Source: a virus. Taken from it: a DNA stretch of 64,000 bases. Shown one piece after another: positions 4,613 through 16,835 of this stretch (positions are counted from its first letter, which is position 1; each line of letters opens with the position of its first letter). The stretch covers positions 1 to 64,000 of the IMG/VR virus record IMGVR_UViG_3300023110_001595; one strand, 5' to 3'. A program made the translations under genes and the position numbers. Below the pieces are notes generated by a model. It ran no database searches, was not told the origin of the DNA, and saw only the letters and a list, made by a program, of their open reading frames with translations.

Positions 4613-5698
4613 ATGTCAGACGTTATTCGTACACTATCTCCTAACAAAGCAAAAAACGCACTGCGTCACGCTATGAAGAAAAAGCGTCCTGTGTTTTTAT
4701 GGGGTCCGCCAGGTATCGGTAAATCCGATATTGTAGCACAGGTTACAAACGAGTTTTCTAACTCGCATCTAATTGATATTCGGTTGAGCCTTTGGGATCC
4801 AACTGATATTAAAGGCATTCCATACTTTGACAGCAAAAATGTTAAAATGGTTTGGGGTGCTCCATCAGAACTGCCAGACGAAGAGTTGGCAGCACAATAC
4901 GACAATATTGTTGTATTTTTTGACGAAATGAACTCAGCTGCACCTGCTGTACAAGCGGCAGCATATCAGTTGATTCTTAATCGTCGTGTCGGGCAATACA
5001 AACTGCCAGACAATGTTATCATTGTTGCTGCGGGTAACCGTGAAGCAGATAAAGGCGTTACATATCGTATGCCTTCACCACTTGCTAATCGCTTTATTCA
5101 CATTGAAATGGCTGTCGAATTTGACGATTGGTTCCAGTGGGCAGTAGATAACAATCAACACAAGGATGTTGTTGGTTACTTGACTTTTGCTAAAAAAGAC
5201 TTGTACGACTTCGATCCTAAATCCGCAAGTCGTTCGTTTGCAACACCACGTAGTTGGGCGTTTGTAAGTGAATTACTTGATGACGAACTTGACGAAGGTA
5301 CTACTACTGATTTGGTTTCCGGTTCAGTAGGTGAAGGACTTGGTGTTAAGTTTATGGCACACCGAAAGGTAGCCGCAAGTATGCCTAATCCAACTGATAT
5401 TCTTGCAGGCAAAGTAAAAGACATGAGCACGTCAGAAATCAGTGCCATGTATTCGCTGACTGTTAGTCTTTGCTATGAACTAAAAGAAGCATCAGATAAA
5501 AATGACAAAAAGTTTGATGATAAAGTCAATAACTTCTTACGCTTTGCAATGGATAACTTTGACACAGAACTAGTTGTTATGGGTATTAAACTTGCGCTAA
5601 CACAGTATGCGCTGCCAATTGATCCAGACGAAGTGGAATGCTTTGACGAATTCCACAACCGTTATGGTAAGTATATTAAAGCAGCACAAGCGGTGTAA
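4613..5698 (+). CDS. MoxR-type AAA+ ATPase
   Basis: A 361-residue AAA+ ATPase. Walker A is GPPGIGKS (residues 31-38) and Walker B is VVFFDEMN (Asp104/Glu105). Sensor-like segments follow (IIVAAGNRE and the Arg in LANRFIH). MoxR-type ATPases act as chaperones with von Willebrand A (VWA) proteins to insert cofactors or remodel complexes, and the next gene encodes such a VWA protein, so the two probably form one machine. A promoter precedes it and a hairpin terminator follows at 5711, making it a one-gene transcript with its partner separately promoted. Confidence 0.85.
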   Translation: MSDVIRTLSPNKAKNALRHAMKKKRPVFLWGPPGIGKSDIVAQVTNEFSNSHLIDIRLSLWDPTDIKGIPYFDSKNVKMVWGAPSELPDEELAAQYDNIVVFFDEMNSAAPAVQAAAYQLILNRRVGQYKLPDNVIIVAAGNREADKGVTYRMPSPLANRFIHIEMAVEFDDWFQWAVDNNQHKDVVGYLTFAKKDLYDFDPKSASRSFATPRSWAFVSELLDDELDEGTTTDLVSGSVGEGLGVKFMAHRKVAASMPNPTDILAGKVKDMSTSEISAMYSLTVSLCYELKEASDKNDKKFDDKVNNFLRFAMDNFDTELVVMGIKLALTQYALPIDPDEVECFDEFHNRYGKYIKAAQAV

Positions 5699-5710
5699 GT
5701 CGATAGATAA

Positions 5711-5740
5711 TGGGCAGTTTAGGCTGCCCATTATTCTATT
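5711..5740 (+). terminator. Rho-independent-like terminator
   Basis: A perfect 7-bp stem (TGGGCAG / CTGCCCA, 5711-5717 with 5724-5730) has a 6-base loop and is followed by a T-rich run (TTATTCTATT). It lies 12 bases after the stop of the MoxR-type gene. Confidence 0.7.
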
Positions 5741-5746
5741 ACGAGG

Positions 5747-5774
5747 TTGACAATTCTGTAAATAGTGTTATATT
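5747..5774 (+). promoter_or_regulatory. Sigma70-like promoter TTGACA-N16-TATATT
   Basis: TTGACA (5747-5752) and TATATT (5769-5774) have a 16-base spacer. It lies directly after the terminator and 27 bases before the ATG at 5802, with a GAGAGGAA ribosome site. Confidence 0.7.
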
Positions 5775-5801
5775 AATATTAGCACTGATGAGAGGAATAC
5801 A

Positions 5802-7109
5802 ATGTTTGATAATTGGCCATATATCGAAATGTCTACAAAAGACACATCTAGTAAACTTAAAAACTGGCAACCTAATCCAGATATTACAGAACAAGAATTA
5901 GATGTAATGCGTAAAGATGTGCTAGATCGCATCATTATTGCACGAGTAGGTTTGCTATTACGTCATCCGTTTTTTGGTAATATGGCAACACGTTTGCGTA
6001 TACAATGTGCAGACGATTGGTGCCCTACAGCCGCAGTCGACGGTCGTAACTTGTACTTTAACACACAATTCTTTAATGCAATGTCAAACAAAGAAATTGA
6101 ATTTGTTATTGCACACGAAATTCTACACTGTGTATTTGATCACTTGGGCCGTAGAGACGAACGTAATCCTTTGTTGTATAATATTGCTGCTGATTACAAA
6201 GTAAACAACTTGCTTGTTCGTGATCGAATTGGTGAAAAACCTAGCATTGTTGATTGTTATCAAGACTTCAAATATGAAGAATGGACATCAGAAGAAATAT
6301 ACGACGAATTGTATAAAGAGGCAGAAAAGAACGGTGAAGAATATTTAAAACAATTAGGTGAAATGCTAGACGAGCATTTGGACTTAGAAGGTGACGGTAC
6401 AGAAGAAGATAACAAAGATGGTAAAGGTCGCCCTAAGTACAGTAAAGGCGAAATGGATCAGATCAAAGACGAAATTAAAGAAGCAATGATCCAGGCTGCA
6501 CAAACTGCTGGTGCTGGCAATGTTCCAGGCGGTGTGCAACGTCTTATTAAACAACTAACAGAGCCTAAAATGAACTGGCGTGAATTGCTACGTCAGCAAA
6601 TCCAAAGCACAATCAAAAGCGATTACACATTTGCTCGTCCATCACGTAAAGGCTGGCACACAGGTGCTATTTTGCCAGGTATGAACTTCCAAGATACAAT
6701 TGACATTTGTGTTAGCATTGATATGTCAGGTTCTATTGGTGACGATCAAGCAAAAGACTTCCTAAGCGAAATCAAAGGTATCATGGACGAATACAAAGAT
6801 TACAAGATCAAAGTATGGTGTTTTGATACAGCAGTTTACAACGAAGAAGACTTTACTGCTGATGGCGGCAGAGACTTGAGTGAATACAAAGTGCTAGGCG
6901 GTGGCGGCACTGACTTTATGGTAAACTGGACATACATGAAAGACAACGATATTCAACCTAAAAAGTTCATTATGTTCACAGATGGTTATGCTTGGGATAG
7001 TTGGGGTGATTCGGAATACTGTGAAACTATTTTTATCATTCACAGCAATCACAATAAAAACCTAGAAGGTCCTTTTGGTATTACTGCTCATTATGAGGAG
7101 GCTGCGTGA
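5802..7109 (+). CDS. Putative metallopeptidase with C-terminal VWA-like domain
   Basis: A 435-residue two-domain protein of the putative metallopeptidase/VWA-like family (DUF2201 type). The N-terminal domain has the zinc-peptidase motif HEILHCVFDH (His105, Glu106, His109). A charged linker follows (EGDGTEEDNKDGKGRPKYS). The C-terminal VWA-like domain carries a MIDAS-type DMSGS motif at about residue 307 and GGGGTDF near 366-372. Such proteins are commonly encoded next to MoxR ATPases, as here. The pair may mature or remodel a phage or host complex, but the substrate is unknown. The end overlaps the GTG start of the next gene. Confidence 0.8.
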   Translation: MFDNWPYIEMSTKDTSSKLKNWQPNPDITEQELDVMRKDVLDRIIIARVGLLLRHPFFGNMATRLRIQCADDWCPTAAVDGRNLYFNTQFFNAMSNKEIEFVIAHEILHCVFDHLGRRDERNPLLYNIAADYKVNNLLVRDRIGEKPSIVDCYQDFKYEEWTSEEIYDELYKEAEKNGEEYLKQLGEMLDEHLDLEGDGTEEDNKDGKGRPKYSKGEMDQIKDEIKEAMIQAAQTAGAGNVPGGVQRLIKQLTEPKMNWRELLRQQIQSTIKSDYTFARPSRKGWHTGAILPGMNFQDTIDICVSIDMSGSIGDDQAKDFLSEIKGIMDEYKDYKIKVWCFDTAVYNEEDFTADGGRDLSEYKVLGGGGTDFMVNWTYMKDNDIQPKKFIMFTDGYAWDSWGDSEYCETIFIIHSNHNKNLEGPFGITAHYEEAA

Positions 7110-8301: not shown

Positions 8302-8585
8302 CGAACAGAAACGACTACTGGGATAAGATACTCTCAGAAATTGATATGGATTACATTCCAATTGAGTATATGAATACAGTAGTCGTAAAATTTCATGATG
8401 GAAAAGAGTGGGAAATAGACCTAGCTAAACCAAAACAATCCGAATCAGACGTTGAAAAAATATTAGATGACTTTTTCAAAGAATACGAAGATAGTATAAA
8501 TACTGTTGATTTTAGATTAGACCTACATAAATTAAAAAATGATATTTCTAAAAGAACTGCACGTTTTTTAAAAGTAAACAGATGA
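8298..8585 (+). CDS. Small hypothetical acidic phage protein
   Basis: A 95-residue acidic protein (YWDKILSEIDMDYIPIEYM; VEKILDDFFKEYEDSINTV) with no known motif. It is coupled by ATGA overlaps to both neighbours. It contains KFHDGKEWEIDL, which resembles short beta strands, followed by helices. No function can be assigned. Confidence 0.7.
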   Translation: MTNRNDYWDKILSEIDMDYIPIEYMNTVVVKFHDGKEWEIDLAKPKQSESDVEKILDDFFKEYEDSINTVDFRLDLHKLKNDISKRTARFLKVNR

Positions 8586-9142
8586 TTACAAATATTAATA
8601 TTAGTCTTGATTATAAAGAATTAGTCGATACTTATTATAAATTAGATATCGATAGTAAAATAAAAAATAATTACAATCTTAAACAATTAGCAGTGCAGTG
8701 TCGAAATGATGCTACACCAAAAGATCAATTGTCAGAAAGTTGTGGCAGCTTATATTATGATTGGCCTGCATATACTGGAAAAGGTGATATACCATTACGC
8801 AAACAAATATTTGAAGAAGATCAATTCAATACTGTATGTGATATCTTTCAAAATACAATTTTCGAAGAATTAATAGAAAAAATACAACAACAATACGATA
8901 TCATTAGAGGTCGTTTTATGTTATTACAACATAAAACTTGTTTAACATATCATAAAGACCCTAGCAAACGTATTCATATACCAATATATACAAACAACGA
9001 TTGTATGATGATTATAGACGATCAAGTCTATAGATTACCGTTTGGTGCAACATATTTGGTAGATACTACCGTTCCTCATACTGCACTAAATGCAAGTAAA
9101 GACCCTAGAGTGCATCTTGTATTTTGTTTAAATACTGCGTAA
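8582..9142 (+). CDS. 2OG-Fe(II) oxygenase-like protein (Asp/Asn hydroxylase type)
   Basis: A 186-residue protein with the double-stranded beta-helix signature of 2-oxoglutarate/Fe(II) oxygenases of the aspartyl/asparaginyl beta-hydroxylase type. The HxD pair is His124-Lys-Asp126 (TYHKDP), the distal iron ligand is His166 (TVPHTALN), and an Arg suited to 2OG binding follows in DPRVHLVFCL. The spacing fits the family. It shares this plan with the gene at 13495. A peptide or protein hydroxylation role is known for the family, but the substrate here is unknown. It closes the first + strand operon before a late promoter. Confidence 0.7.
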   Translation: MITNINISLDYKELVDTYYKLDIDSKIKNNYNLKQLAVQCRNDATPKDQLSESCGSLYYDWPAYTGKGDIPLRKQIFEEDQFNTVCDIFQNTIFEELIEKIQQQYDIIRGRFMLLQHKTCLTYHKDPSKRIHIPIYTNNDCMMIIDDQVYRLPFGATYLVDTTVPHTALNASKDPRVHLVFCLNTA

Positions 9143-9184: not shown

Positions 9185-10291
9185 ATGGCTTTAAAGCTAA
9201 GACGCGGATTAAGTGCAAACCGTACAGATATTGTGCCTTCAGAAGGCGAATTAATCTATACAACAGATACCAAATTAATTTATGTAGGTGACGGAACCAC
9301 ACCAGGTGGTAACGTTGTAACCGCAAGTGGCGGAGGCGGTGGTAGCATTACTGGTATTACTGATAACACAACAGGTCCAGTATTGACTTTAAACAACACA
9401 AATATTCAAACAGGAGTTACTTTAGAATTAGGTGCAGATATTGATCTTAATCAATATGATATTACAGGAGAAGGTGATATTACTGTTACAGGTGATTTGA
9501 GTGTAACAGGTTTAGGGTCAGGTATAGTTTCAGCTAATGCAGTTAATACTTCTACATTGTCAGTAGCGCAAGGTATTACAGCAGATATTAAAGGTAGTGT
9601 TTTTGGTGATGACAGCAGTGTAATTGTAAGCGGTATAGATGGTAGTGTAATAGCAAGTTCTTTGACAACTGATGAAATATTTGTAGACGGTGTAACTTTA
9701 AATATAAATAATCCTACTTCATCTAATGCCCAAATTACTGCAAAGATAGCTAGTGATAATGATGTAAGCCTGGTAAATTTAGTTAGAGAGGCACAAACTG
9801 ATATCAGTGGTGACACGTTACCATATGGTAGAATTGCTTTTACTAGAGATGACAGTGTAGGTGAAGCTACTACATCATTTATTCAAGGCGGTAGAGATAC
9901 CATTGTTATTGCCTGTGATCCGAGTAGTACATTTAGTGCTCCATATAACTTGATATTCCAAAATGGTAGATTTGGCATAGGCGCCTTAACTCCTTCAGTA
10001 GAATTAGATGTTGTAGGTGATGCAAATATCTCAGGAACACTTACAGCAGGTGATGTTGTATCAAATGCAGCAGGCACACCTGCTATTACTTCAACAAGCG
10101 ATCTTACAATTACCGTAGCAGGCAGAGCCGAAATTACAGGTGGAACATTTAAATTAGCAAATTTAACAGATACAGAACGTGATGCAATTACTGCTGAAAA
10201 CGGAGATATGATTTATAACACGGATGATAATACAATACAAGCATATGTAAATGGTGCTTGGTATAGAATTGATACTTCTCCTATAGTATAA
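9185..10291 (+). CDS. Tail-fibre-like virion protein
   Basis: A 368-residue structural protein. The N-terminus (LKLRRGLSANRTDIVPSEGE, then IYTTDTKLIYVGDG) is the short module that opens many phage fibre and tropism proteins (Mtd-N-like). A Gly-rich hinge (SGGGGGS) leads to a Thr/Gly/Val repeat-like beta region (GDITVTGDLSVTGLGSG) typical of trimeric fibres. The C-terminus (MIYNTDDNTIQAYVNGAWY) is shared in style with the end of the fibre at 40367 (MIIFNQNTNKFQGYTGSSW). It is driven by the late box at 9146 and is directly followed by the subtilase gene, suggesting that both are virion-associated. Confidence 0.75.
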   Translation: MALKLRRGLSANRTDIVPSEGELIYTTDTKLIYVGDGTTPGGNVVTASGGGGGSITGITDNTTGPVLTLNNTNIQTGVTLELGADIDLNQYDITGEGDITVTGDLSVTGLGSGIVSANAVNTSTLSVAQGITADIKGSVFGDDSSVIVSGIDGSVIASSLTTDEIFVDGVTLNINNPTSSNAQITAKIASDNDVSLVNLVREAQTDISGDTLPYGRIAFTRDDSVGEATTSFIQGGRDTIVIACDPSSTFSAPYNLIFQNGRFGIGALTPSVELDVVGDANISGTLTAGDVVSNAAGTPAITSTSDLTITVAGRAEITGGTFKLANLTDTERDAITAENGDMIYNTDDNTIQAYVNGAWYRIDTSPIV

Positions 10292-10300
10292 GGATTTAGA

Positions 10301-12694
10301 ATGACTGAAAAATATTATCAACTAGGTGCGAACAATGCATCAGATTTTGAAAGTCTACATTACTTGCTTTGCTCGGCAACAAATAGTATAGAAAATATAC
10401 CTAATAGAGAATGTACTTGTCACGATGATAAATTACATTCTCCTACAAGAGGCACATTTTTACTCACAGATGAAGAAGCAGCAGTATTAAAAAATGATGC
10501 AAGAGTAAAATTTATCAACATCGATTATGCACTATATCCAGATGATTATAAAGCACCACCAGATGAAATCCAAGCAACAAGTGCTGAATTACTCACAAGA
10601 TATACAGGTAATGTAAAAATTTATAGAGAACACGAAAACAGTGATACTCTTCCTGGTACACCCGATAGCACCGATTATAATCGAGGACCATGGAGTTTAA
10701 CACGTCATGCACAAAAATTAGATCCTTGGGTGGATGAAAGTAGAACAGACAATTATGTCTATTCAGCAAACCCTACACAATATGGCGACGGTGCTGATGT
10801 AGATGTGATAGTTGCAGATGACGGTGGCGGATGGATAGGACACCCTGAATTTCAAAACAACTGTACAGGTGGTAGTGCACCTGATGGTTATACAGGTGGA
10901 AACAAATTACCGGGTAATGGAACTTGTGATGTATTAGATATTGTCCTAGATGCACCATATTATTTAGATCCTGATTATTTTGATGCCGATGCTGGCAACC
11001 GTCTAGAAACACGTTGGGACGGCACAACTGTTCCTGTAGAAAGTTTTGCAAGAGGATGGTGGACAAGCACTGATAACCGAAGTGCAACATTCAATGCTGC
11101 ATATCCAAGTGCAGGTGTTATATCGTCAGTAAACAGCAGCTACACTAGGGCTTATTGTAATGGTAGTAACACTGCACAGAGTAGTGTAGGGCAGCATTGT
11201 ACGCCCTGTATGGCGCTTACATACGGTAGAACACAAGGGTGGGCATACAATGCTAATAAATGGGTATTAAACTTGTATGGTGGCAACGGATCTGACATTG
11301 AACAAGGTTTTGATATGCAGAAAATTTTTCATAACACAAAACCTGTAAATCCAAAATATGGAACACAAGATCCAACTGTAAGTTCAAACAGTTGGGGGTA
11401 TCGTTCAAGCAAAGGTACAACAGGCGGGTACTATCATTTCCGTACAGATGCTCCTGTTCAATACGGTGGTATAAGTGACGAACCTTTGTTCATTTCTCAT
11501 ATGGGTGTTACAGGGGATGCAGGACGCTGGAAGTCGGAAATGAAAACAAACTCTTACACAACTGCACTAGATGAATTAATCGACTCTGGTGTAATTTTTG
11601 TATGTGCAGCTGGCAACAGTAATCAAAAACAAGTAAACTGGGATCATCAAGATTTTGACAATTATGTAAGTGATATATCAACAAGAACAATTGAAGACTC
11701 ATCATATGATGAATTTGGTATCGAAGTTACAGGAACAACCAACAGACGAGGTTTTCCACAACAAGGTGGATTAACACTAGGCGAAGGTAGTACCTTTGCA
11801 TTCAATGCAACTGCACCTGGAGGCACTGCATACTATAGAATTGTAGGCACAGATAGAACAGGTGCTATCGATTACAATAACGGTCCAATTACAATGCGAG
11901 CCGGTGATACAATAGAACTTACAAACGATGCGGATTCAAGCCATACTATGTTTATTAAGACATCAGCAACTACAGGTGCAAGTGATCAAGTAACTGGTGC
12001 AACAGGGCAAGGTGCTCATAGTGGATCTACAATAACTTGGACACCTACAAGCACTGGAACATATTATTATAGATGCTTGAACCATGCAAGTATGGGTGGA
12101 GAAATTGTAGTTACAGCAAGAGAGCAAACATACAAAACTATAAACATCGGTGCTCTTGATGACGAGTATGCTACAGGCAACTTAGAACGCAAAGTAAACT
12201 ATAGCGACAGAGGCGAAGGCATAGATGCTTATTTTGCAGCAGATGGTATTTTAGCAGCAAATAAATCTTACACAAGTGAAGGAAGATATCCTGACACATA
12301 TCCTGGATTCACAGCTAACAGTGGTAGTGGTGCAGGAATTCCAGAAGACTGCGCCTTTAGTGGCACTAGTGCAGCCTGTCCTGTAGGTGCAGGATTTATT
12401 TCAACTCTTGTAGGACTAAATCGTAATTGGACATACACAGATGTAAAAAGTTATTTTGCAAATTTAGACGACCAAGATCCTAGCGATTTTTATATAGGCA
12501 CAGAATCAACAAGTGCCACCGATAGCAACTGGAGTGATTACAATAGTTTAGAAGGTGGACCAGCTAAGGTTGGGTATCAAAATGCTGCTGCTATTAACCA
12601 AACAACTTTCCCAAAAAGAAGTGCTACAATTACTAATTTAAATATTACTGGTTTAAATATTAGTAGAGTAAATAAATTTGACAGAGGCAGATAA
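10301..12694 (+). CDS. Subtilisin-like serine protease with inserted cupredoxin-like domain
   Basis: A 797-residue S8-family (subtilase) protein. The catalytic Asp lies in VDVIVADDGG (about residue 173), the His in VGQHCTPCMALTYG (about 297), the oxyanion Asn in FVCAAGNSNQ (about 436) and the Ser in FSGTSAACPVGAG (about 690). Between Asn and Ser, residues of about 490-605 form an extra beta domain (MRAGDTIELTNDADSSHTMF and then YYYRCLNHASMGGEIVV) with the His, Cys, His, Met spacing of a type-1 copper (plastocyanin-like) site. There is no signal peptide. The position beside a fibre gene suggests a virion-borne protease that cuts host surface or phage structural proteins. Confidence 0.8.
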   Translation: MTEKYYQLGANNASDFESLHYLLCSATNSIENIPNRECTCHDDKLHSPTRGTFLLTDEEAAVLKNDARVKFINIDYALYPDDYKAPPDEIQATSAELLTRYTGNVKIYREHENSDTLPGTPDSTDYNRGPWSLTRHAQKLDPWVDESRTDNYVYSANPTQYGDGADVDVIVADDGGGWIGHPEFQNNCTGGSAPDGYTGGNKLPGNGTCDVLDIVLDAPYYLDPDYFDADAGNRLETRWDGTTVPVESFARGWWTSTDNRSATFNAAYPSAGVISSVNSSYTRAYCNGSNTAQSSVGQHCTPCMALTYGRTQGWAYNANKWVLNLYGGNGSDIEQGFDMQKIFHNTKPVNPKYGTQDPTVSSNSWGYRSSKGTTGGYYHFRTDAPVQYGGISDEPLFISHMGVTGDAGRWKSEMKTNSYTTALDELIDSGVIFVCAAGNSNQKQVNWDHQDFDNYVSDISTRTIEDSSYDEFGIEVTGTTNRRGFPQQGGLTLGEGSTFAFNATAPGGTAYYRIVGTDRTGAIDYNNGPITMRAGDTIELTNDADSSHTMFIKTSATTGASDQVTGATGQGAHSGSTITWTPTSTGTYYYRCLNHASMGGEIVVTAREQTYKTINIGALDDEYATGNLERKVNYSDRGEGIDAYFAADGILAANKSYTSEGRYPDTYPGFTANSGSGAGIPEDCAFSGTSAACPVGAGFISTLVGLNRNWTYTDVKSYFANLDDQDPSDFYIGTESTSATDSNWSDYNSLEGGPAKVGYQNAAAINQTTFPKRSATITNLNITGLNISRVNKFDRGR

Positions 12695-12735: not shown

Positions 12736-13455
12736 ATGAATATTAGATTCCAAATATTTGGATTACAAATTTTATCATATCTATCAATCATACCTATGAT
12801 TATTTTTGCAAGTTGGTGGCAATGGCTAATTGCTGTATTCTTGTACTTTGTGTTTAATGGATTAGGCATGATTATGACATATCATCGATTGTTAACACAC
12901 AGAAGTTTTACTTGTCCTAAATGGTTAGAATATATACTTGCTTTTGTTACAACTTTTAGTTTCACTGGTAGTGCCATTACTTGGATAGCAATACATAGAA
13001 AGCATCATAAATTTGCAGATACAGACAAAGATCCGCACAGTCCGGATCATTTAGGATTTTGGAGAGTGCAATTTTTTACTGCGTTTGCCGAAGTAGAAGG
13101 TAGATATGCTACAGATTTAATGCGTGATCGTTTTTACAAATGGCAGCACAAATATTACACAACAATTTGCTATGCAACAATTTTAGTATTTACATTTATA
13201 GATCCAATGTTGTTAATATACGGATTATTGTTTCCAGCAGCACTAACATTGTTTTTTGGAACCTTAGTATTAAGTTGGGCACACAAAGATTATAAACCTA
13301 GAACAGTTATTTGGTTGGCATTAATTACATTTGGTGATGCTTTCCACGATGTGCATCATGATTATCCTAACAAATATAGACTACATAAATATGACCTGAT
13401 TGGATGGATTATTGAAAAAGTATTCGTCAGAAATAAAACCACACCTGTGGTCTAA
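12736..13455 (+). CDS. Membrane fatty-acid desaturase (delta-9 type)
   Basis: A 239-residue integral membrane di-iron desaturase. All three histidine boxes are present: HRLLTH (His50...His55), HRKHH (His87, His90, His91) and HDVHH (His204, His207, His208). Hydrophobic spans lie at about 10-45, 65-85 and 150-190, the usual acyl-CoA/acyl-lipid desaturase topology. It would introduce a double bond in host membrane acyl chains. Cyanophage desaturases are known. It heads an operon of 2OG oxygenases and glycan enzymes, and a second desaturase gene lies at 16074. The product is shorter than most bacterial desaturases but looks complete. Confidence 0.85.
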   Translation: MNIRFQIFGLQILSYLSIIPMIIFASWWQWLIAVFLYFVFNGLGMIMTYHRLLTHRSFTCPKWLEYILAFVTTFSFTGSAITWIAIHRKHHKFADTDKDPHSPDHLGFWRVQFFTAFAEVEGRYATDLMRDRFYKWQHKYYTTICYATILVFTFIDPMLLIYGLLFPAALTLFFGTLVLSWAHKDYKPRTVIWLALITFGDAFHDVHHDYPNKYRLHKYDLIGWIIEKVFVRNKTTPVV

Positions 13456-13494
13456 AGGATTAAATAAAGTTGGAGAAGTATATTGGAGGTTAAA

Positions 13495-14208
13495 ATGTCT
13501 ACAAGCTGGAAAGGACGCCACGAATTACCAGTCATTGCACGACTTGATTACAGATTTGACATCAAAAGACTCAAAGAAGAACTAAATCAGTTTGCAGCAG
13601 ATAAGATTTGGGACGGGCTAGGTAGCGATTATGCTCATATGTGTGAAACACATACAAAACTTCCAAAAATGTTTTTCAAAGAAGAAGAACTAGAGGAAGT
13701 TAATTGTGTTTGTGATTTAGATTGGAAAACGTCTAGTTATCAACAATTAAGTTTAACTGAGTTTGACGAATCGTATGATATTAGCCAACGCACAGAATTA
13801 AGTGGTAGTGCTTGGGATACAAGAGTAGCAAAACGTGATCCTAAAGCAGATGAACGCTGGTATAGAAAAGTTAAAGACGATGTGCCTTCGTATTTGCGTG
13901 AGGTTTTAGACACGTTTACAGGGTCGCACAGAACTCGATTTGCAAATTTAGCACCACATAGTGAAGTTAAGCCTCATATAGACTATGACACACTTTATGG
14001 AATAAGACTACACATTGCATTAGAAACTAATGATAAATGTTTTAATGGCGGGTGGGATAAAGATGGCAAAGAATATAAAGAGCACATTCCTGCTGATGGT
14101 AGTGTTTGGATGGTTAATCCTGGGGTCAAACATTATGCAGTAAACGGAGGCAATACTCCACGCAATCATTTAATAATAAGTTTAGATAGTCAAAAGGTTC
14201 TTATGTGA
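13495..14208 (+). CDS. 2OG-Fe(II) oxygenase, Asp/Asn beta-hydroxylase-like
   Basis: A 237-residue protein starting at the ATG at 13495, which has GGAGG 7 bases upstream. A TTG at 13483 is less likely. Iron ligands are visible as His161-Ile-Asp163 (KPHIDYDTLYG) and His213 (GVKHYAVN), followed by an Arg (TPRNHLIIS) that would bind 2-oxoglutarate. The N-terminal 110 residues are a helical/charged extension including SDYAHMCETHTKLPKM. The family hydroxylates Asp or Asn side chains or, in some members, small molecules. The stop overlaps the GTG of the next gene. Confidence 0.75.
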   Translation: MSTSWKGRHELPVIARLDYRFDIKRLKEELNQFAADKIWDGLGSDYAHMCETHTKLPKMFFKEEELEEVNCVCDLDWKTSSYQQLSLTEFDESYDISQRTELSGSAWDTRVAKRDPKADERWYRKVKDDVPSYLREVLDTFTGSHRTRFANLAPHSEVKPHIDYDTLYGIRLHIALETNDKCFNGGWDKDGKEYKEHIPADGSVWMVNPGVKHYAVNGGNTPRNHLIISLDSQKVLM

Positions 14209-16073: not shown

Positions 16074-16835
16074 ATGTTAAAAACTTTTCATCAAAAACTA
16101 TTATTTTTACAATCAGTGCTTTATATAACAAGCATTATTGGTTTGATATTTTATTGGGATCCTATATGGCTGCTGTTATCTGTGTTTGGAAAATATATAT
16201 TTGCTAATTTAGGTTTAGAAATTGGTTATCATAGATTACTATCGCATAGAAGTTTTACTACAAGCAGAACAGTAGAAAACATTTTAACATTCTTAGGAGT
16301 ATATGGTGGTTTTGGTCCTAGTTTAACTTGGACGGCTAATCATAGAGTACATCATAAAAACAGTGATAGGGAAGGTGATCCTCATCCTGCTTCAGAAACT
16401 TGGAAAACATTTTTTTGGTTAAATGATAAAGTTCCAGTAAATCCTAGTGTAGTTAGAGATTTGCTACGAAATCCATTTCATAAATTTTTGCGTGATTGGT
16501 ATTTTACAATTTGGTATTTAACATTAATAGTTGCATTTATTATAGATCCACGTATTGCAATTTATCTATTTGCTATTCCAGGAGCAACAGGACTTTTAAG
16601 TGGTGCAGCAATAAACATACTATGTCATAAATTTGGATACAGGAATTTTGAAACAAAAGATAAAAGCACAAATAATTGGTGGGTAAATCTTTATGCAACT
16701 TTTGGTGGAAGCGGATGGCATAACAATCATCATGCTAATCCTGGCAGTTATACTACAAAAGTCAAATGGTGGGAATGGGACTTAGATGGTTGGATTATTG
16801 AAAAGTTTTTGATGAAAAAGGAATCTTTAAAATGA
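16074..16835 (+). CDS. Second membrane fatty-acid desaturase
   Basis: A 253-residue desaturase, a paralogue of the one at 12736. The histidine boxes are HRLLSH (His53...His58), HRVHH (His90, His93, His94) and HNNHH near residue 213. Hydrophobic segments flank them (FLQSVLYITSIIGLIFYW; TFLGVYGGFGPSLTW; LIVAFIIDPRIAIYLFAI). The two copies differ enough in sequence to have different positional or substrate specificity. It lies in the same operon and its end overlaps the start of the gene at 16832. Confidence 0.85.
   Translation: MLKTFHQKLLFLQSVLYITSIIGLIFYWDPIWLLLSVFGKYIFANLGLEIGYHRLLSHRSFTTSRTVENILTFLGVYGGFGPSLTWTANHRVHHKNSDREGDPHPASETWKTFFWLNDKVPVNPSVVRDLLRNPFHKFLRDWYFTIWYLTLIVAFIIDPRIAIYLFAIPGATGLLSGAAINILCHKFGYRNFETKDKSTNNWWVNLYATFGGSGWHNNHHANPGSYTTKVKWWEWDLDGWIIEKFLMKKESLK

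Follow-up and report, generated by a model that had tools for sequence, protein, structure and literature searches.

What is a copper-protein fold doing inside a viral protease? The question is raised by an ORF of 797 aa (positions 10301-12694, + strand) in the 64,000 nucleotides of viral DNA analysed here (positions 1 to 64,000 of IMG/VR record IMGVR_UViG_3300023110_001595; hereafter the window). The ORF starts with ATG, is preceded by AAGGA and is present in one copy only in the 75,782-base virus record. Its product matches Peptidase_S8 (PF00082) at residues 180-718 (E 1.4e-6; 28.3 bits for a curated cut-off of 21.8), and this Pfam match is interrupted by a Copper-bind domain. The fold, the Asp, His, Asn and Ser residues and the GTSxAxP motif are shared with the other S8 subtilases (subtilisin, kexin/furin and proteinase K-like enzymes). 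We fetched 61 relatives of the protease from IMG/VR and found 22 in phage records; counts were made over the 41 or 42 distinct relatives that cover each position. The catalytic residues are invariant among them, all on the + strand: Asp173 (10817-10819; D in 41/41), His299 (11195-11197; H in 42/42), the oxyanion Asn439 (11615-11617; N in 42/42) and Ser690, within the motif GTSAACP (12368-12370; S in 41/41). The full-length AlphaFold2 model matches subtilisins in Foldseek (target TM up to 0.68), with a mean pLDDT of only 67, a moderate value. Judged by its sequence, the protein is an S8 subtilase with intact catalytic residues and would be proteolytically active.

Residues 1-80 (10301-10540, + strand) probably form an I9-like propeptide. 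Pfam gives no propeptide match in this part of the protein; the predicted secondary structure of residues 4-74 has the order strand-helix-strand-helix-strand expected for such a domain, and the best full-length fold matches include pro-forms, e.g. ProN-Tk-SP and pro-subtilisin E. The gene just upstream (9185-10291, + strand) carries an Mtd_N domain at residues 4-39 (Pfam, E 2.8e-11), in agreement with the initial annotation, which had placed the protease beside a fibre gene. The closest named relatives of the protease are those of cyanomyoviruses; gp23 and psbA were not found in the 75.8-kb record. Around the subtilase gene promoter-like matches are no more numerous than expected by chance, and terminator-like matches are few. 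Gene context and the annotation of relatives suggest that the protein is part of the virion.

The insert occupies about residues 498-608 (110 aa; 11792-12124, + strand) and lies, as had been noticed from the sequence, between the oxyanion Asn and the catalytic Ser; we call this position site A. It was identified by Pfam (Copper-bind, PF00127, residues 520-604; E 4.3e-5; 24.3 bits for a cut-off of 21.2), by profile match, by a model of the module and by Foldseek. The initial annotation had proposed a cupredoxin-like domain within a subtilase and named structure prediction as a check. Modelled alone with 47 relatives, the module gives nine strands in a cupredoxin fold with a pLDDT of 97, and its top PDB fold matches are all cupredoxin-fold copper proteins (rusticyanin, Cu nitrite reductase, plastocyanin and auracyanin), so that the assignment is borne out. 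Both Pfam and Foldseek speak against a PA-domain fold, and Foldseek also against an immunoglobulin fold; nor is the insert a free-standing short ORF like petE, being embedded in a reading frame of 797 aa.

The proposed His, Cys, His, Met order of a type-1 copper site also holds. The predicted ligands are His548 (11942-11944), Cys592 (12074-12076), His595 (12083-12085) and the axial Met598 (12092-12094), all on the + strand, carried by the motifs MRAGDTIELTNDADSSHTMF (residues 532-551) and YRCLNHASMGG (590-600). The closest solved protein by sequence profile is amicyanin (E 4e-6): its ligands align with these four, and it has the same C-x2-H-x2-M loop. Fold and ligand order are likewise those of the amicyanin/plastocyanin family (PF00127); the members of that family are free periplasmic electron carriers, whereas the phage module sits inside tail-type proteins, where copper binding is predicted. 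On both sequence and model, the insert is a cupredoxin with a full set of type-1 ligands, and is expected to bind copper.

We then considered the conservation of this site over a set of 82 modules less than 80% identical to each other (nr80), as found by profile. Of these 82 modules, 81 retain the full ligand set, at a mean column identity of about 54%. The first His, the Cys, the second His and the Met are 100% conserved wherever covered, and only one Tyr is conserved to the same degree. The pattern used to search IMG/VR fixed the Cys and the second His, and neither the first His nor the Met; the first His lies outside every search pattern. Among the modules obtained without any ligand motif, 28 of 29 are complete, the remaining one being a partial match. 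The metal site thus defined is, from these alignments, under strong selection. The idea that every module keeps its ligands was nevertheless rejected by a wider search: the same virus has a degenerate cupredoxin-like stretch (L159; 69500-69868 of the record, - strand) within a 4,604-aa ORF, in which the Cys, the second His and the Met are missing (YYISQNDINVSG). Because of this copy, the cupredoxin fold probably tolerates ligand loss. Since the ligands are conserved although copies can lose the site, real metal binding is favoured over a bare beta-sandwich.

Comparison with the relatives shows that the insertion is precise. Proteases 70-85% identical on both flanks (e.g. L017 and L021) have a short turn instead of the module, and L021 reads through the insertion point as RGFPQQGG-KTVDGVTGEVT-YKTINIGA. 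Two other loops of the same family accept inserts and are empty here: site B, in the Asp-His loop (residues 228/229; 10982-10987, + strand), where relatives carry a cupredoxin or a module of about 310 aa, and site C, in the His-Asn loop (residues 381/382; 11441-11446, + strand), where L002 carries a cupredoxin. For 42 distinct proteases, a cupredoxin is present at site A in eight (the carriers being the ORF described here and L007-L016), at site B in four (carriers L049, L051-L053, L058-L060 and L067) and at site C in one, to which L120, found later, adds a second by sequence. No insert is present in 25 of the 42, and their catalytic residues are equally intact. On the tree of the protease core the presence of a cupredoxin changes at least five times, or at least seven if the sites are told apart. 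The module is dispensable, and mobile between sites within one protease family. Site A directly precedes the strand TINIGALDDE and site C follows the SNSWGYR strand; we take TINIGALDDE to correspond to VIAVGAVDSS of subtilisin BPN', which would put sites A and C near the S1 side of the substrate cleft.

Cupredoxins are not the only guests of these loops. Sites A (L025, L049) and B (L055, L056, L066) also accept a different module of 283-312 aa, which has no Pfam match, carries the motif EHVFHTIHMHG and was found in 85 phage records; it shares 86% identity with a segment of a protein of Syn33 whose annotation is baseplate wedge subunit (L068:9001-9885). Compared with other S8 enzymes, this phage family has long insertions and takes foreign modules at three loops. 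The subtilase relative of S-TIM54 (L005:3998-10420) has an alpha/beta-hydrolase-like insert near residue 110, as judged by eye. The same protein has a long C-terminal part resembling Ig-type repeats; another cupredoxin-like motif lies near residue 2038.

The module is also widespread outside this family. A tblastn search with the module of the present ORF finds one phage record at 1e-5, and with a relative's module 25 at 0.01; a single-sequence scan of IMG/VR returned only identical loci, and a pattern derived from the module alignment was needed. With that pattern at least 599 stretches were retrieved, at least 564 of which encode relatives. Other subtilases have the module ahead of the Asn (L088, L097) or at the C-terminus (L093, L099, S-CAM4, S-H9-1, ACG-2014e). 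Further hosts are baseplate-wedge proteins, RCC1-repeat proteins, one TIG-domain protein, an Ig-domain protein beside gp13 and very long ORFs. The tail spike/proximal fibre protein adjoining the subtilase of P-SSM2 has two copies, and further examples are the S74 protein of P-SSM5 and the gp9 of S-H34 and S-RIM14. In cyanophage gp9, the connector between baseplate and tail fibres (phrog_677), the C-terminus is a cupredoxin with all four ligands (L003:7152-7904, L038:6084-6962, L068:5569-6789). Such a module-ended gp9 is the next gene downstream of module-free subtilases in a whole clade (L034-L046, L066) and in S-SSM7; G005 likewise has a subtilase without insert, yet a gp9-like protein whose module keeps its ligands. 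A structure search of viral models independently returned S8 peptidases, proximal tail fibres, an S74 protein and gp9. In each of the eight named cyanomyovirus records tested, one module or more lies in an ORF of 175-2,145 aa, larger than a free plastocyanin. In addition there are short ORFs of 107-144 aa, which are probably free petE plastocyanins. Among phage structural-type proteins the module is therefore optional and mobile, as phage Ig-like decoration domains are. In four loci (L117, L118, L132 and L150; + strand) ORFs of about 1,060-1,110 aa start with two tandem cupredoxin modules.

The phylogeny of the modules indicates how many times the subtilases acquired them. The B-site modules form one clade (support 100/100). 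By the AU test, neither a single clade of A-site modules (p 0.36) nor a shared origin of A and B (p 0.40) is rejected, while A with C as one clade (p 1e-4) and all subtilase-borne modules as one clade (p 5e-58) are; these p-values are somewhat optimistic, the groups having been defined once the tree had first been inspected. The A with C result led us to reject a single capture from which the module would then have reached all sites. Because A with C, and all subtilase-borne modules together, fail as one clade, the module sequences indicate that subtilases captured cupredoxins several times.

How are these observations best put together? The reading we hold with modest confidence is that of a mobile decoration of the virion, comparable to the phage Ig-like domains but with a selected metal site that would bind copper. 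A tail-associated subtilase with its catalytic residues kept would be made as a proenzyme, processed and carried on the particle. Into its surface loop between Asn and Ser a cupredoxin would have been grafted, drawn from a large exchangeable pool of modules on tail and baseplate proteins of marine T4-like and related phages. The module would hold copper in its type-1 site, the metal most likely stiffening and shaping a small beta-sandwich. By analogy with the Ig-like domains, this sandwich may serve surface contact or docking near the substrate cleft, i.e. as an exosite that holds the enzyme on its substrate, host envelope or neighbouring tail protein. Phage proteins fold where free copper is scarce, in the cytoplasm, so that the site might also remain empty or be filled by zinc. 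We propose only tentatively the more general idea that marine T4-like phages make systematic use of an exchangeable tail module, in protease loops, gp9 and fibres, to provide their virions with type-1 copper sites, and that the copper is of use to the particle: for example, it might lock the module once the virion has left the copper-poor cytoplasm, or engage a copper receptor of the host.

Two functions had been offered for the domain in the initial annotation. A binding module fits the mobile decoration just described; a redox- or metal-regulated protease is unsupported, because in close relatives the module sits at two other loops, is missing, or belongs to gp9 or a tail fibre instead. Such regulation would mean that copper loading, perhaps only after leaving the copper-poor cytoplasm, alters the loop beside the active site and switches the protease on. 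It is true that the insert separates Asn from Ser in an intact enzyme and immediately precedes the TINIGALDDE strand, that all its metal ligands are conserved, and that several different phage subtilases acquired such modules independently. But the module may occupy any of three internal loops or the C-terminus, it is absent from 25 of 42 distinct relatives whose catalytic residues are equally intact, and it is common in tail proteins that are not proteases; we therefore consider this explanation quite unlikely. Since the module moves between loops and proteins and is absent from most relatives, protease activity would be independent of it. A fixed allosteric switch was rejected as the main reading, the position of the module changing among relatives, and we regard a fixed control of the protease by metal as unlikely. 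The module looks like neither an obligate protease switch nor an electron carrier. For it to act as a plastocyanin in the host, or to oxidise a component of the host surface, would be consistent with a type-1 site, with the short free cupredoxin ORFs that occur in the same genomes and with the free petE plastocyanin that cyanophages carry (PMC2984593); electron transfer is nevertheless very improbable for a module buried inside large tail or protease proteins with no electron partner, in genomes where a free petE is already present.

If the module were a plain Ig-like decoration, its ligands would owe their conservation to chance or to folding, and in practice the site would hold no metal. The phage Ig-like domains are equally mobile, and the copy in the same virus that lacks three ligands suggests that the metal is not needed by every member. 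That copy also shows, on the other hand, that ligands can be lost when not needed, and the His, Cys, His and Met, with one Tyr, are the most conserved positions in 82 diverse copies, 29 of them obtained free of the motif; we regard a metal-free decoration as unlikely. Alternatively, the metal could be the bait: a loaded domain mimicking a copper carrier would dock on a copper-uptake receptor of the host, a copper version of the Ferrojan-horse idea. This would suit the strict conservation of the metal site and the presence of modules in tail and baseplate proteins, and metal in tail fibres has already been proposed as receptor bait in the case of iron (PMC11705849). It appears improbable to us, as the host receptor is only putative and the module is often far from the fibre tips (gp9, protease loops, the Ig-domain protein beside gp13), at positions less typical of a receptor ligand.

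Parallels to the copper-binding decoration exist in several known systems. The PA-domain subtilases (C5a peptidase, tomato SBT3) likewise have a whole beta-rich domain between Asn and Ser, and PA domains may act as substrate-holding exosites in other subtilases; here, in contrast, a cupredoxin takes the place of the PA domain, and its position varies among family members. The Ig-like domains in structural proteins of phages are optional, mobile beta-sandwiches on tail and head proteins; the present module is equally optional and mobile but has a cupredoxin fold and a conserved metal site. Cyanophage petE is a phage-borne cupredoxin too, but a free one, a short auxiliary metabolic gene outside the tail proteins. 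Iron-binding HxH motifs have been proposed in phage tail fibres, namely T4 gp37 and R22Y gp12 (PMC11705849); those sites are for iron, made of His only and located in fibres, whereas ours is a type-1 copper domain. In the literature searched, which was mostly without subscription journals, we found no account of cupredoxin modules in the tail proteins of phages. Should copper indeed occupy the modules, metalloprotein tails would be a feature of very common marine viruses, with consequences for attachment, for the duration of infectivity and for the trace-metal chemistry of the sea. Closely related proteases, some lacking the insert and others bearing it at different loops, form a natural set for testing the effect of the metal domain.

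Other genes on the + strand of the window deserve mention. Aspartyl/asparaginyl beta-hydroxylase-like genes (8582-9142 and 13483-14208) flank the fibre and subtilase genes. Two genes resemble fatty-acid desaturases, one by Pfam (12736-13455; FA_desaturase, E 1e-12) and the other by sequence only (16074-16835). Further upstream, 4613-7109 holds a MoxR-VWA-like pair, in which an AAA ATPase (phrog_1297) precedes a DUF2201 putative metallopeptidase/VWA gene.
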